Virus record (IMG/VR): IMGVR_UViG_3300006162_000029 | Location: 1 to 37,817 of that record | Reading direction: 5' to 3' (one strand) | Length of the DNA stretch: 37,817 bases | From: a virus | Shown here: positions 2,200 through 35,462 of the stretch, piece by piece | Numbering within the stretch: position 1 is the stretch's first letter | Layout of the letters: the number at the start of each line of letters is the position of its first letter | The notes under the pieces: model-generated | Seen by the model: only the letters and a program-made list of their open reading frames with translations | The model's database searches: none | Told to the model about the DNA's origin: nothing | Translations under genes and position numbers: made by a program

Positions 2200-2541
2200 A
2201 TGGGTAAGCCTCATATAGAAATAGACGGAGAACAAGTCTTTGAACTCGCTAAGATTGGCTGTAAAACCACGGAAATAGCTGCTTTTTTCCAATGCTCTAG
2301 GGATACAATTGAACGCAGATTTGCGGCAGAATTAGAAAAAGGGAGAGCAGACGTGCAAATGTCATTACGTCGATGGCAAATAGATAATGCTCGAAATGGA
2401 AATGTCGTAATGCAGATCTGGTTAGGTAAGCAAATGCTAGGTCAAGAAGATAGAATGAAATTTGATATTTCTAAGATACCAAATGAAGTCTTCATAGAAG
2501 AAGCTAAGCGAAGATTAGGCGATGGATCAGAAGAATCGTGA
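2200..2541 (+). CDS. terS: Terminase small subunit
   Basis: A 113-residue protein with an N-terminal helix-turn-helix (about residues 10-45: FELAKIGCKTTEIAAFFQCS then RDTIERRF). Small terminases use such a domain to recognise packaging DNA. Residues 55-85 (RWQIDNARNGNVVMQIWLGK) fit the central oligomerisation helices of this family. The stop lies 20 bases inside the large terminase gene, the usual terS-terL arrangement with translational coupling. Family membership is by motif and position; the cut site type (cos or pac) cannot be read from it. Confidence 0.8.
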   Translation: MGKPHIEIDGEQVFELAKIGCKTTEIAAFFQCSRDTIERRFAAELEKGRADVQMSLRRWQIDNARNGNVVMQIWLGKQMLGQEDRMKFDISKIPNEVFIEEAKRRLGDGSEES

Positions 2542-3958
2542 GATCTTAGCTAAACTATTAGAAAGCAGTAAGGTTAAACGTCCAAATTTCAACATCGAAG
2601 AGTTCTTATTCAAAGAGCAATTAGCGTTAGTAAGAGATCCTGCAAAGTTTGCAACAGCAGTTTGTAGTGTCAGAGCTGGTAAGACAATAGCCTGCGCCGC
2701 TGATCTGATTAATACAGCTTTAACCAAACCCGGAACTGTAGGGCTTTACATTACTCTCGCAAGATCAAGTGCAAAACGTATTGTGTGGCCTGAACTTCAC
2801 AATATTAATCGTAATTATAAACTTGGAGGTATCTCAAATGAGTCTGATCTTAGTTTTAAGTTTGGTGATAGCATTATCTATTGTTCCGGTGCTTCTGATA
2901 GCGCTGAGATCGAAAAGTTTAGGGGACTTTCCAATGTTGCTCTGGCTTATCTTGATGAATCCCAAGCTTTTAGATCACACATTAAAGAACTGGTTGAAGA
3001 GATCCTCATCAAACGATTATACGATACCAATGGAAGATTACGTTTAATAGGAACACCGGGGCCAATTCCCTCAGGATACTTCTATGAAGCTAGTCAATCT
3101 ACTGAGTGGGTTCATCACGCATGGACTCTTCATTCCAACCCCTGGATTGAACGCAAATCAGGTTGCACAGTTGCAGAACTTATTCAACAAGACTGCGCAA
3201 GAAAAGGCGTAACTCTAGATGACCCATCAATCCAAAGGGAATGCTTCGGTAGATGGGTTCTTGACGCTAATAGCTTACTACTGACTTACGATGCTACAAA
3301 GAATCACTATGAGGAGCTTCCAAAAGGTAATTGGAATTATATCTTAGGAATGGACTTTGGATTCGATGATGCTGATTCATTCAGTGTCTTAGGGTGGAGA
3401 GATAACAGCGCTGATACTTATCTAGTTGAAGAAGTGATTAACGAGAAACATACGTATGAGCAGATGGCTCATCAAGTGGATCTATTGTTCAAGAAATATA
3501 AGTTCTGTAAAGTTGTTGCAGATCCAGGCGGTGGCGGTAAGAAGTTAATCGAGTCGCTTAGGCCACGTTACTTAATTCCAATGGAAACGGCTGACAAGTT
3601 AGGAAAGATTGCTAATTATGGACTTCTCAACAATGCACTTAGAACATCTAGATTCTTTGCTAAAAGTACTTCAAGATTCGCTCAGGATTGTAATCTCTTG
3701 GAAAGAGATACAGATAAGTCCACACCTGAGAAGACAATTGTTAAAGGACATTCAGATGCGGTTGACTCTTGCCTCTATGCTTTTAAAGAAAGCCCTGCAT
3801 ACGGATACATTAAACCAAAAGAACCTCTTAAGCCTGGAACCAAAGAATGGGGTGAAGAGCAAGAAGAGAAGATGCGTGAAGCTCTCTATAAGACTATCAA
3901 AGAAGAGCAAGAAGCGATGCAAGACGATATGAAGGATTATGCGGATTACTACCAGTAA
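2522..3958 (+). CDS. terL: Terminase large subunit
   Basis: A 478-residue packaging motor and nuclease. The ATPase half has a variant Walker A CSVRAGKT (48-55), a Walker B ending in YLDES (D145, E146) and a coupling motif around IGTPG (176-180). The nuclease half has the RNase H-like acidic residues: D278 in GMDFGFDD, D334 in VVADPGGGG, and D412/D415 in KGHSDAVDS. Length is typical. It would dock on the portal, drive DNA into the prohead and cut concatemers. The C-terminal 50 residues are very acidic and Lys-rich, as in other terminases. Confidence 0.93.
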   Translation: MDQKNREILAKLLESSKVKRPNFNIEEFLFKEQLALVRDPAKFATAVCSVRAGKTIACAADLINTALTKPGTVGLYITLARSSAKRIVWPELHNINRNYKLGGISNESDLSFKFGDSIIYCSGASDSAEIEKFRGLSNVALAYLDESQAFRSHIKELVEEILIKRLYDTNGRLRLIGTPGPIPSGYFYEASQSTEWVHHAWTLHSNPWIERKSGCTVAELIQQDCARKGVTLDDPSIQRECFGRWVLDANSLLLTYDATKNHYEELPKGNWNYILGMDFGFDDADSFSVLGWRDNSADTYLVEEVINEKHTYEQMAHQVDLLFKKYKFCKVVADPGGGGKKLIESLRPRYLIPMETADKLGKIANYGLLNNALRTSRFFAKSTSRFAQDCNLLERDTDKSTPEKTIVKGHSDAVDSCLYAFKESPAYGYIKPKEPLKPGTKEWGEEQEEKMREALYKTIKEEQEAMQDDMKDYADYYQ

Positions 3959-31674: not shown

Positions 31675-32532
31675 TTACATCTTCTCTTTCTTCACACTAA
31701 AGAATTTAGTAGGCTCTTTTCTATAAGGCTCAAGATCTAAATCTTTAAGTTGTGGGATATTACCATAATCAATATTCCCCTTACGTTCTGTCCATTTAAT
31801 ATGGTAAGGCCCAACCGTGCAATCAGAGGTAGCTAGTTCTTTGATTTTTGAATTGACTTCTTCATATCCAATAGTGAGAGCGTCAATCTCTGTTTTAAAC
31901 TTCGCTCTTTGTGCCAATAGCTCTAAAAGCTCTGGACGTTCAACAATAGTCACTGGCGATACTTTGTTTTGTATCATATCCCAGAACTCTTTAGTCTTCT
32001 CTATGATCTGCGCTTGAATAGTCGGATTAGGAGTGACACGAACCACGGCAATATCACCATCATTATAAGAAACGTAATCGAGATGGGTATAACCACTAAC
32101 AAGCAATTGACACTGCACCTGTGGTATGTACTTGACAGGAATGTGCCCATTAATGGCACCCTGGTGATCAACTGCTCCTGAAAACTTAATCTCAATAACT
32201 CTTTGTACATAGTGATCAATCCCGTCAAAACTAGCTGATAAGAACTTATACTCTGGATGTTCTGCTACTTCTGGAACCATGTTAGTCGTATATTTCTTGT
32301 TATACATTTCTCTAGCAATAGGCTCTATCTTCTTTCCTCGCTCTGTAGCCCAATTGCCTTTAAACGGTTCAGACTGTCCAGTTTTCTCTAACCACAACTG
32401 ATGCGCAGTTTTATATGGACTTACTCCCATGATGATTGGAACATCTGAAGCCCCAATATGACGAGAACGCCACTCGTGCCATTTTGCAGTATCTTGTTCA
32501 ATCGTTTGCCGTGTTCCGTTCAACCAATTCAT
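31675..32532 (-). CDS. YqaJ-type exonuclease (lambda Exo fold)
   Basis: A 285-residue nuclease with the YqaJ/PD-(D/E)xK pattern: RHIGASDVPIIMGVSPYKT (24-42), GKKIEP (66-71, E70), LSASFDG (98-104, D103), VIEIKFSG (112-119, E114 and K116) and QVQCQLLVSG (138-147). Such enzymes chew one strand of double-stranded ends to feed a single-strand annealing protein. With Sak4, DUF669 and helicase in the same operon it completes a phage recombination set. It overlaps the VRR-NUC gene by 35 bases. Confidence 0.85.
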   Translation of the reverse strand: MNWLNGTRQTIEQDTAKWHEWRSRHIGASDVPIIMGVSPYKTAHQLWLEKTGQSEPFKGNWATERGKKIEPIAREMYNKKYTTNMVPEVAEHPEYKFLSASFDGIDHYVQRVIEIKFSGAVDHQGAINGHIPVKYIPQVQCQLLVSGYTHLDYVSYNDGDIAVVRVTPNPTIQAQIIEKTKEFWDMIQNKVSPVTIVERPELLELLAQRAKFKTEIDALTIGYEEVNSKIKELATSDCTVGPYHIKWTERKGNIDYGNIPQLKDLDLEPYRKEPTKFFSVKKEKM

Positions 32533-32839
32533 TTACAAACTCCATTGCTTTAATTAAAGAGTCTACCCATGTAGCAGCTCCACCCGTTTTGTTTACCTTA
32601 TTGATAAACGCTTGTTGTTGTTCAGTAGGCTTATTGCCCTTGATTTTAACTTCTATAGCAATGAATCTACCATTATACAAGCCGATTATATCGCTGATGC
32701 CGTTAGGTGCGAATCTTGATTTCTTCCTATAAAACCCACCTGGATCAAAGATGCCAACACTATAATATTTAAAAGCAAACCAACCTGGTTGAAGATTTAA
32801 GTAATGAAGTATGGATTGTTCTAGAATTTTTTCAGACAT
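32498..32839 (-). CDS. VRR-NUC domain nuclease
   Basis: A 113-residue minimal nuclease with the VRR-NUC pattern: RKKSRFAPNGISDIIGLYNG (D50), FIAIEVKIKGN (E63 and K65) and PTEQQQAFINKV (Q74). Stand-alone VRR-NUC proteins of phages act on branched DNA, often as Holliday-junction resolvases. It starts 8 bases inside the helicase 3' end and is coupled to it. Confidence 0.85.
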   Translation of the reverse strand: MSEKILEQSILHYLNLQPGWFAFKYYSVGIFDPGGFYRKKSRFAPNGISDIIGLYNGRFIAIEVKIKGNKPTEQQQAFINKVNKTGGAATWVDSLIKAMEFVNELVERNTAND

Positions 32840-34346
32840 GACTCAACTTAACTATCTTAGGATAGATCCCTTCCATGATATACGTAATTGATTTAGGCTT
32901 ATTCATTAGTTCAGTCAGTCGTCTCTGATAGACCTTTTGAGCATGATGAGAGTGTTTAGCAAAGTATTCTCTTAGTGTAGATCTTAAGAGATCATTAACT
33001 TCATATTCAATCATGTTGCACTCATTCCCAGCTTTACTCATATGATCCTTATACTGAACTGAAATCACTTCGACTACATACTCTTGACGTTTAAGTAAAT
33101 CAACATCGCTTGCCTTCTTTGTTAGATTTTTAAGAGGGTTAGTCTCTTCTTTAATATAGATATAACCGCAATCTGGGCATTCTTTCTTTGAAATCTCTAT
33201 ATAAGAGAAGCAAGAAGGACAAAATTTCATCGGGATAGGCTTGTCCTTCTTACCTCCCTTTATCGAAACCATAGGGTTGTCTATAGGCCCCAATGTCTCA
33301 ACAACTCTACCGTAATCCAAAACAAGCAAATCAGACTTATTATGCGATAAACGTAATCCACGACCCACGGTTTGAACATATAAGACAGGACTTCGTATAG
33401 GCCGCATAAGAACAACGCAATCGATAGGAGGATAATCATATCCCTCCCCGACTATCGTAACAAATACAAGATGTCTAGCTATCCCATTCTCAAAATTATA
33501 TTGCGCGTATTGTCTATCCTCTTTACTCATCTTTGAGTGAAGCTTAACTGATGGCTCTAAGTTCTTTATCAATTCTGCATTAACGGCTTCGCAGTGCTCA
33601 ATATTAGCGCACGCCCAAATTACTTTAGATCTTCCATCCATTCTTTTGAATGCGTCATGGATTTGAAGCGTAAGCTTTCCCTTGTCACTCACTAGAGTGT
33701 CAACATCTTGTTGATTAAACTCACCGGCTAGAATCCTCAACTCCGAAGTATCAAACTGATACTCTGTTCTCTTAATCACTGGTGGGACAAGATACCCATT
33801 TGCTAACATCTCAGGCAATCGCTTTTGATAAGTAACTCGTGGGAACAACTTCCCTGGTCCGTAAATATAACCAGTAGATCTAAATGGCGTCGCGGTGAAT
33901 GCTGCTATCTTCAAACGAGGATTAAGTGCTGAGTGAGCTTGTATGAAGTCAGTATACCGACCCGAAACCTGATCCACATTATGGACCTCATCAAGGATAA
34001 TAAGATTTAGACTCTCTACCGGGACATTGTAGATGCTTTGGATTGATGCCACGGTAATAGGCTTATTCTTATTATACTCTTGATGAGATCCACAGTAGAC
34101 CCCAACCTTATCTGATCCTATAGACTTCGATATTCTTCGTTCTGTTTGATCAACTAAGCCTATCTTATTCACAAGAATCACAACTTTGAGGTCTCTCTTC
34201 TTATCAAGCGAACGCTGCAATAATTCGATCATTATTTCAGTCTTGCCCGTTCCTGTGGGCAAAACACACAACGCGCTTGACTGAAAGAATAACTCCGAGT
34301 AAAGCGCATCTGCTGCGTCTCTTTGATAGTCACGAAGAATTAGAAT
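32832..34346 (-). CDS. SF2 DEAD/DEAH helicase with probable AUU start
   Basis: A 504-residue helicase when started at the ATT at 34346. Motifs: DYQ (6-8) in LRDYQRDAAD; Walker A LPTGTGKT (29-36); DEVH in LIILDEVHNV; FTATP; and QTVGRGLR. A zinc knuckle follows (CPSC, then CPDC). The first conventional start, TTG at 34271, would lose the first 25 residues including DYQ. No ATG, GTG or TTG lies between it and the upstream TAG. A perfect AAGGAG (34355-34360) stands 8 bases before the ATT, inside the end of the DUF669 gene. AUU starts are known but rare (infC). Role: branch migration or unwinding during recombination-dependent replication. Confidence 0.82.
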   Translation of the reverse strand: MLILRDYQRDAADALYSELFFQSSALCVLPTGTGKTEIMIELLQRSLDKKRDLKVVILVNKIGLVDQTERRISKSIGSDKVGVYCGSHQEYNKNKPITVASIQSIYNVPVESLNLIILDEVHNVDQVSGRYTDFIQAHSALNPRLKIAAFTATPFRSTGYIYGPGKLFPRVTYQKRLPEMLANGYLVPPVIKRTEYQFDTSELRILAGEFNQQDVDTLVSDKGKLTLQIHDAFKRMDGRSKVIWACANIEHCEAVNAELIKNLEPSVKLHSKMSKEDRQYAQYNFENGIARHLVFVTIVGEGYDYPPIDCVVLMRPIRSPVLYVQTVGRGLRLSHNKSDLLVLDYGRVVETLGPIDNPMVSIKGGKKDKPIPMKFCPSCFSYIEISKKECPDCGYIYIKEETNPLKNLTKKASDVDLLKRQEYVVEVISVQYKDHMSKAGNECNMIEYEVNDLLRSTLREYFAKHSHHAQKVYQRRLTELMNKPKSITYIMEGIYPKIVKLSHV

Positions 34347-34753
34347 GGAGTAGACTCCTTGTTTGTCTTCGTTTCGTGTGGGCGATAATAGCTTACTACG
34401 TTCTTGGCCCTATAGTGCTCATCGTCCTTAGATTTAATCACGGCATCACAACGCAGCCCGATTAGATCTAAGACATTCGCAAGTTTAAAGTCTGTAACAC
34501 CTGAGCAACGCATAAAACCTTTGAGTTGTGCGAGTCCAATCTCTGTCGCCTTTGCGTTGTCATTTTTAATGTTGAAGGTCGTGAAAATGAATCTACCTTC
34601 ATGTGGTCCCTCAAGTATCTTGAGTTTCGCATTGATATAAGATCCTGTCCCTGACTTGGTGTCCTTGACTTCTGCCTGATCCATGATGACATAATAAGTT
34701 CCATTCGGTAATAATTCAAAACTGCCTTCTTTTACTTCTGTTAAATCCCACAT
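34340..34753 (-). CDS. DUF669 protein, probable single-stranded-DNA-binding factor
   Basis: A 137-residue protein with the DUF669 pattern: FELLPNGTYYVIMDQAEVKD, then TKSGTGSYINAKLKILEGPH, then GRFIFTTFNI and a C-terminal region ending in a basic stretch. DUF669 proteins sit beside Sak-type annealing proteins and are thought to bind single-stranded DNA. It follows the Sak4 gene by one base. Its last codons AAG GAG contain the ribosome binding site of the helicase. Confidence 0.82.
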   Translation of the reverse strand: MWDLTEVKEGSFELLPNGTYYVIMDQAEVKDTKSGTGSYINAKLKILEGPHEGRFIFTTFNIKNDNAKATEIGLAQLKGFMRCSGVTDFKLANVLDLIGLRCDAVIKSKDDEHYRAKNVVSYYRPHETKTNKESTPF

Positions 34754-34754
34754 A

Positions 34755-35462
34755 CTATTTCACTCCTTTAATCTTCGCAGCTATTGCTGCGAGGTTTGGT
34801 TCTTCTAGTTTGACAAGCTTACCTGATCTATCTTTCGCGGCAAGTTTGTCGGTCTTCTCTGTTACAAGAACTCTTTTACCAGTCTCTCTATCTGCGTGGA
34901 GATAGAACACTTCATCAAAATAGGCTGGGAGATCATTGGCAAGTTTACCGACGATATTAACTCCGGTAAATCTTTGTCCGTTTTCATCTTTATCTGTTTG
35001 AGATAAAGCAGTGAAAACTACGTTATAATAAGGTAAATCTCTAAAAGTCTTAACGAGTGACTTCATTCTCTTTGAATTCTCTCCGTAAAGCACTAATGCG
35101 TCCTTACGATCCGGAAACTCTACTCCTAATTGATGAACCAGGTTCTGACTAATCTCAGTCAATGAATCAATGAAGATCCATTTATATTTCTTTCGAGACT
35201 CTTCTGTAAGTAGATGAGTATAAGCTTCACCAAGTCTTGCTATTCTTTTCTCTTGAGGAAGTATCTCGCCCTTTTCATCTACGGAGATATCAATCACGTC
35301 GATCTTATGACCTTGTAGAGACAAGAGTCCCGCTTCTGCAGAAATAATCAGAGTCGGTTCCTTAATCGTAGAAGCAAGCGTTGTCTTACCAGCGCCTGAT
35401 TCTCCATGTATTAGAATCTTTAATGAGCCAATGCTCATTTCATTAGTGCTACTTATTTTCAT
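34755..35462 (-). CDS. Sak4-type RecA-like annealing ATPase
   Basis: A 235-residue ATPase with Walker A GESGAGKT (20-27), Walker B WIFIDS (D99) and a sensor-like VVFTALSQTDKDENG. Size and pattern fit Sak4 proteins, RecA-fold single-strand annealing proteins of phages; the DUF669 neighbour supports this. It would load on DNA exposed by the YqaJ exonuclease. The start at 35462 is preceded by AAAGGA. It is the first gene of the leftward block, 65 bases from the divergent primase gene. Confidence 0.82.
   Translation of the reverse strand: MKISSTNEMSIGSLKILIHGESGAGKTTLASTIKEPTLIISAEAGLLSLQGHKIDVIDISVDEKGEILPQEKRIARLGEAYTHLLTEESRKKYKWIFIDSLTEISQNLVHQLGVEFPDRKDALVLYGENSKRMKSLVKTFRDLPYYNVVFTALSQTDKDENGQRFTGVNIVGKLANDLPAYFDEVFYLHADRETGKRVLVTEKTDKLAAKDRSGKLVKLEEPNLAAIAAKIKGVK

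Follow-up and report, generated by a model that had tools for sequence, protein, structure and literature searches.

A RadD-like helicase gene in a viral contig that may start at an AUU codon within the Pro-Phe end of an overlapping DUF669 gene

A helicase gene without an ordinary start codon

From which codon is a helicase translated when its reading frame holds no ordinary start codon at the place where its relatives have one? The question is raised by a linear virus record of 37.8 kb from a public viral-contig collection (the whole of this stretch is called the window here), in which five genes follow one another on the minus strand, from an AAA_24 P-loop protein through DUF669, an SF2 helicase and a VRR-NUC-like protein to a YqaJ exonuclease:

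34755..35462, minus strand: AAA_24 P-loop protein, in the Sak4-type position adjoining the SSB gene; TIGR01618 match below cutoff
34340..34753, minus strand: DUF669 single-strand-DNA-binding protein (Pfam PF05037, PHROG SSB families), overlapping the helicase start
32832..34346, minus strand: RadD-like SF2 helicase coding sequence as read from the ATT at 34346, 504 aa (Pfam, PHROG, PDB, fold)
32498..32839, minus strand: VRR-NUC-like nuclease, further down this gene block; match below curated cutoff
31675..32532, minus strand: YqaJ-family exonuclease, also further down the block; profile match

The helicase frame is open from 34409 to 32832 (minus strand) after an in-frame TAG at 34412-34410, and inspection of that frame bears out the sequence-only reading, according to which no ATG, GTG or TTG lies between this TAG and a TTG at 34271; the TTG is thus the first such codon, 25 codons inward of an ATT at 34346-34344. 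The frame continues open for 21 codons upstream of this ATT, which sits within the last codons of DUF669 (34753-34340, ending STPF-TAA), just ahead of the stop at 34342-34340. Eight bases separate it from an AAGGAG at 34360-34355, exactly as that reading had placed the two, and the product would be (M)LILRDYQ, whose LRDYQ includes the DYQ element of SF2 helicases that had been recognised upstream of the TTG. A second in-frame ATT, at 34340-34338, overlaps the DUF669 stop as TAATT. Every other probable gene whose 5' end is inside the window has a plausible ATG, GTG or TTG start. The signals concerned are as follows:

34355..34360, minus strand: AAGGAG Shine-Dalgarno (SD) sequence
34344..34346, minus strand: ATT, favoured AUU start, at -3 to LRDYQ and aligned with the starts of the relatives L001, L202 and L009
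34338..34340, minus strand: second in-frame ATT, at -1, forming TAATT over the DUF669 stop; rival AUU start or altered TAATG
34269..34271, minus strand: TTG, first canonical start codon in the helicase frame, residue 26; rejected as start
34332..34372 (approximate), minus strand: predicted RNA structure hiding the SD; folding z -2.15, synonymous shuffles 0.025

The 12 bases at 34346-34335, ATTCTAATTCTT, are an imperfect 6-nt tandem repeat spanning the DUF669 stop, and it is because of this repeat that the junction carries two ATT codons.

The helicase and its N-terminus

The protein matches ResIII, DEAD and Helicase_C in Pfam and the DNA helicase family PHROG 16, and its closest solved structure, both by sequence (PDB, E=2.6e-64) and by fold, is E. 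coli RadD. It scores 176 bits against a curated RadD equivalog cutoff of 720, and is therefore described as RadD-like, not as RadD. The C-terminal Cys pairs are found in both RadD (YejH) and the window helicase, whereas the latter is phage-encoded and falls far below the curated cutoff. The SF2 core is complete (LRxYQ, Walker A, DEVH and motif VI). A lost start, with the helicase no longer made and the frame surviving as young debris, would accord with the lack of a canonical start in the frame, but is quite improbable given that the frame runs uninterrupted for 504 codons and retains every motif as well as the zinc-ribbon-type cysteines. Elsewhere, in the viral contig L204 (IMGVR_UViG_3300020195_000047, about 2358-3501), an intein-like insert, ending GDFTVTHN before S, apparently splits a RadD-like helicase at Walker A.

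The N-terminus bears directly on initiation at the TTG, which comes first among the canonical start codons of the frame and would yield a protein without its first 25 residues. Such a protein would lose Arg5 and Gln8, both invariant among the homologues, together with a helix (residues 6-21) and part of a strand (24-28) that the AlphaFold2 model predicts with confidence (mean pLDDT 86 overall and 88-96 over residues 1-30). The TTG has no SD, and no viral homologue starts after LRxYQ; on the homologue starts and the confidently modelled helix and strand, it is ruled out as the helicase start and given very little credence.

Where the relatives start

Homologues were taken from phages and viral contigs, and 186 distinct viral sequences were aligned at LRxYQ; a scan of a genome collection yielded distant helicases only, which were excluded from the counts. 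A canonical start lies no more than 30 codons upstream of LRxYQ in 185 of the 186, the window being the sole exception. The nearest start in these 185 is ATG in 158, GTG in 19 and TTG in 8, and in 167 it falls within five codons, so that an AUU start is not conserved in the relatives. Starts confined to the position of the TTG, which would have spoken against the AUU proposal, were not found, since none of the 186 begins after the motif.

The alignment with related helicases that the sequence-only reading had called for places ordinary start codons opposite the first ATT. All three of the closest relatives examined at -3 start at its position: L001 (57% identical) with a GTG three codons before LRxYQ, L202 (about 50%) with an ATG giving MKILRPYQ, and L009 (37%) with an ATG. 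Two others begin close by, L090 (about 45%) at -2 with MILRDYQ and L092 (44%) at -4. Judged by these starts and by the structure model, the helicase start must lie at the DUF669 junction, and on the sequence the lack of a canonical start there is most probably explained by initiation at an AUU.

The second ATT would serve if ribosomes terminated on DUF669 and re-initiated there, with the product (M)LRDYQ. Its geometry is that of the junctions in L099, L296, L298, L299, L305, L308 and L309, in which a Phe-TAA overlaps the start before an LRxYQ-type motif as TAATG, and the nearest start is at -1 in 24 of the 186 homologues. Against this, AAGGAG stands 14 nt away, beyond the 4-9 range of the other window genes, and in the nearest relatives translation begins at -3 or -2; with Ile encoded at -1 in L202 and L090 too, the second ATT of the window is easily read as an internal Ile codon. 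Initiation at this codon is accordingly thought unlikely.

The resemblance of TAATT to the TAATG starts of RadD-like helicases is the reason for keeping as rivals both the start at 34340 and a single changed base at 34338 (T for G), whether a contig error or a recent mutation, behind which the usual start would be ATG. One base would restore a junction seen in many relatives (in L099, L296, L305 and L308 the overlap has ATG where the window has ATT), and no second assembly of this virus was found in the phage and viral-contig searches: blastn found no near-identical DNA in phages, and the exact junction is absent from the viral contigs. All other probable window genes, however, look intact with canonical starts, the SD spacing to 34340 is poor and none of the nearest relatives has its start at -1. 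A changed base is thus a reading to be taken seriously that we nonetheless hold to be rather unlikely.

A search for the DNA pattern Phe-TAATK-LRxYQ returned 12 TAATG matches, all opening LRxYQ frames (seven contigs with ORFs of at least 100 codons, and five copies of one interrupted sequence), and six TAATT matches. None of the six is a helicase, and this pattern therefore gives no second AUU case. The five copies (L294, L295, L302, L303 and L310) share the helicase start MLRDYQQRTIDQLYALQ and stop after 17 codons, which may reflect an interrupted gene or an intron.

A DUF669-helicase fusion could also arise through a -1 frameshift late in DUF669, for which the 21 open codons upstream of the ATT would leave room. 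The overlap of the two frames, checked by eye, contains no X-XXY-YYZ slippery heptamer, and the two genes are separate in the relatives examined; the fusion was rejected as barely credible.

The DUF669 tail and the choice of codon

Why the window should have ATT where its relatives have ATG or GTG may be considered from the side of the overlapping gene. DUF669 ends in Pro-Phe-stop in the window and its nearest relatives alike (STPF in the window, ASPF in L001, ATPF in L202, NVPF in L090 and DIPF in L092). The codon at 34346 is made of the last Pro base and the first two Phe bases and so can only be NTT; as long as DUF669 keeps its Pro-Phe end, no ordinary start codon is possible there. This constraint, as read from the codons, explains the absence of ATG at 34346 without selection for weakness. 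That the codon is ATT and not another NTT follows from the usage of CCA, which accounts for 116 of the 239 Pro codons, and, being in effect a coin-flip, it does not by itself point to selection.

In SSB, the C-terminal Ile-Pro-Phe tip is a binding site for RadD (PMC10238739), and where a DUF669 gene adjoins sak4 its product is a phage SSB, with a functional PF tail in the case of phage HK620 (PMC5928155). By analogy, and since the SSB gene adjoining the window helicase also ends in Pro-Phe, the tail that overlaps the helicase start may be a binding partner of the downstream helicase. The Sak4-DUF669 pair of HK620 shares with the window a P-loop ATPase gene beside a DUF669 SSB; in the window, unlike HK620, a RadD-like helicase comes directly after DUF669 and overlaps its Pro-Phe tail. 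The junction is occupied by about 2.5 kb of inserted ORFs in L001 (431-2929) and, by eye, by an inserted HNH-like ORF in L090 (3923-4357), and there is zero spacer between the two genes in the window; given the insertions, DNA seems to come and go at this spot.

The Shine-Dalgarno sequence and the predicted RNA structure

The 37.8 kb hold 17 copies of AAGGAG on the two strands together, about 10 of these not ahead of a gene start. Six other sites precede window genes at spacings of 4-9, a range that includes the 8 nt to the ATT at 34346, and the chance expectation of AAGGAG at such a spacing before a given codon is about 0.0008; neither this arrangement nor the missing canonical start is put down to chance. 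The nearest relatives lack, in their DUF669 tails, the Lys-Glu codons that form the SD, which argues against reading the SD as no more than a conserved feature of the protein.

The same SD is predicted to be hidden. Its GGAG would pair with a CUCC just before the AUU in an inner hairpin (GGAG-UCUA-CUCC) within a longer stem (outer strands ACGAAGA/UUCUUCGU), and its predicted accessibility of 0.23 is the lowest of the seven AAGGAG sites in the window, the others lying at 0.39-0.73. Among synonymous recodings of the junction, 2.5% fold as well (0.025), and the SD is equally hidden in 6.3% (0.063). The hairpin suggests coupling of helicase initiation to DUF669 translation, and as a model-based prediction it lends this coupling weak support.

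A tentative model for initiation

The reading favoured here is translation of the helicase from the AUU at 34346-34344, coupled to DUF669 termination, to which we assign a little less than an even chance. What stands of the original AUU proposal is its placing of the start near the DUF669 stop in preference to the TTG and its SD at a fitting spacing, now joined by the relatives' aligned codon; it had overlooked the second ATT with its TAATT, the Pro-Phe tail that bars an ordinary start and the predicted hairpin over the SD. We infer both the use of the AUU itself and its coupling to DUF669 translation: ribosomes translating and terminating DUF669 would open the predicted hairpin and free AAGGAG, and initiation or re-initiation could then take place at the AUU just before the DUF669 stop. 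Weak use of the AUU would presumably yield far less helicase than SSB, and by analogy with known bacterial AUU starts it may be sensitive to IF3. A more ambitious version, in which the Pro-Phe tail doubles as the start signal of its partner helicase, forcing NTT and combining an AUU with a ribosome-exposed SD to set a low, IF3-dependent helicase:SSB ratio in the first regulatory AUU of a phage, is improbable when taken as a whole.

Gene callers mostly accept ATG, GTG and TTG alone, and genes like the window helicase would therefore be mis-annotated or truncated; a caller that settled on the TTG at 34271 would leave the helicase core short of one helix and with a truncated strand.

Comparison with known systems

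The classical AUU-start genes are infC, which encodes IF3, and pcnB (PMC5472188, PMC13009471). An AUU behind an extended SD in S. aureus cvfC1 works at about 10% of AUG efficiency (PMC13009471), and Yersinia pestis RcsD-Hpt has a functional AUU start (PMC10191623). In Streptomyces the GTC start of sigR, adjacent to rsrA, sets the ratio of the proteins and is repressed by IF3 (PMC5472188), and in E. coli re-initiation that proceeds without an SD is reduced when IF3 is overproduced (PMC2268962). No AUU start in a phage was found in the literature searched, whose coverage was incomplete, so that one may yet exist.

What the window shares with infC, pcnB, cvfC1 and RcsD-Hpt is an AUU at the start behind an SD, for which low efficiency is to be expected; those cases are bacterial and experimentally supported, whereas the AUU of the window is a candidate start and, unlike theirs, falls where an overlapping phage SSB gene ends in Pro-Phe-stop. 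With sigR it shares a non-canonical start between adjacent genes, although the codon is another one and the effect on the ratio is proven there and would here be an extrapolation. If the AUU is used, the window helicase would be a viral counterpart of the weak starts of the infC and pcnB type, in which an overlapping protein tail forces a non-canonical start and sets the ratio of two DNA-repair proteins, a DUF669 SSB and a RadD-like helicase, that may themselves interact.
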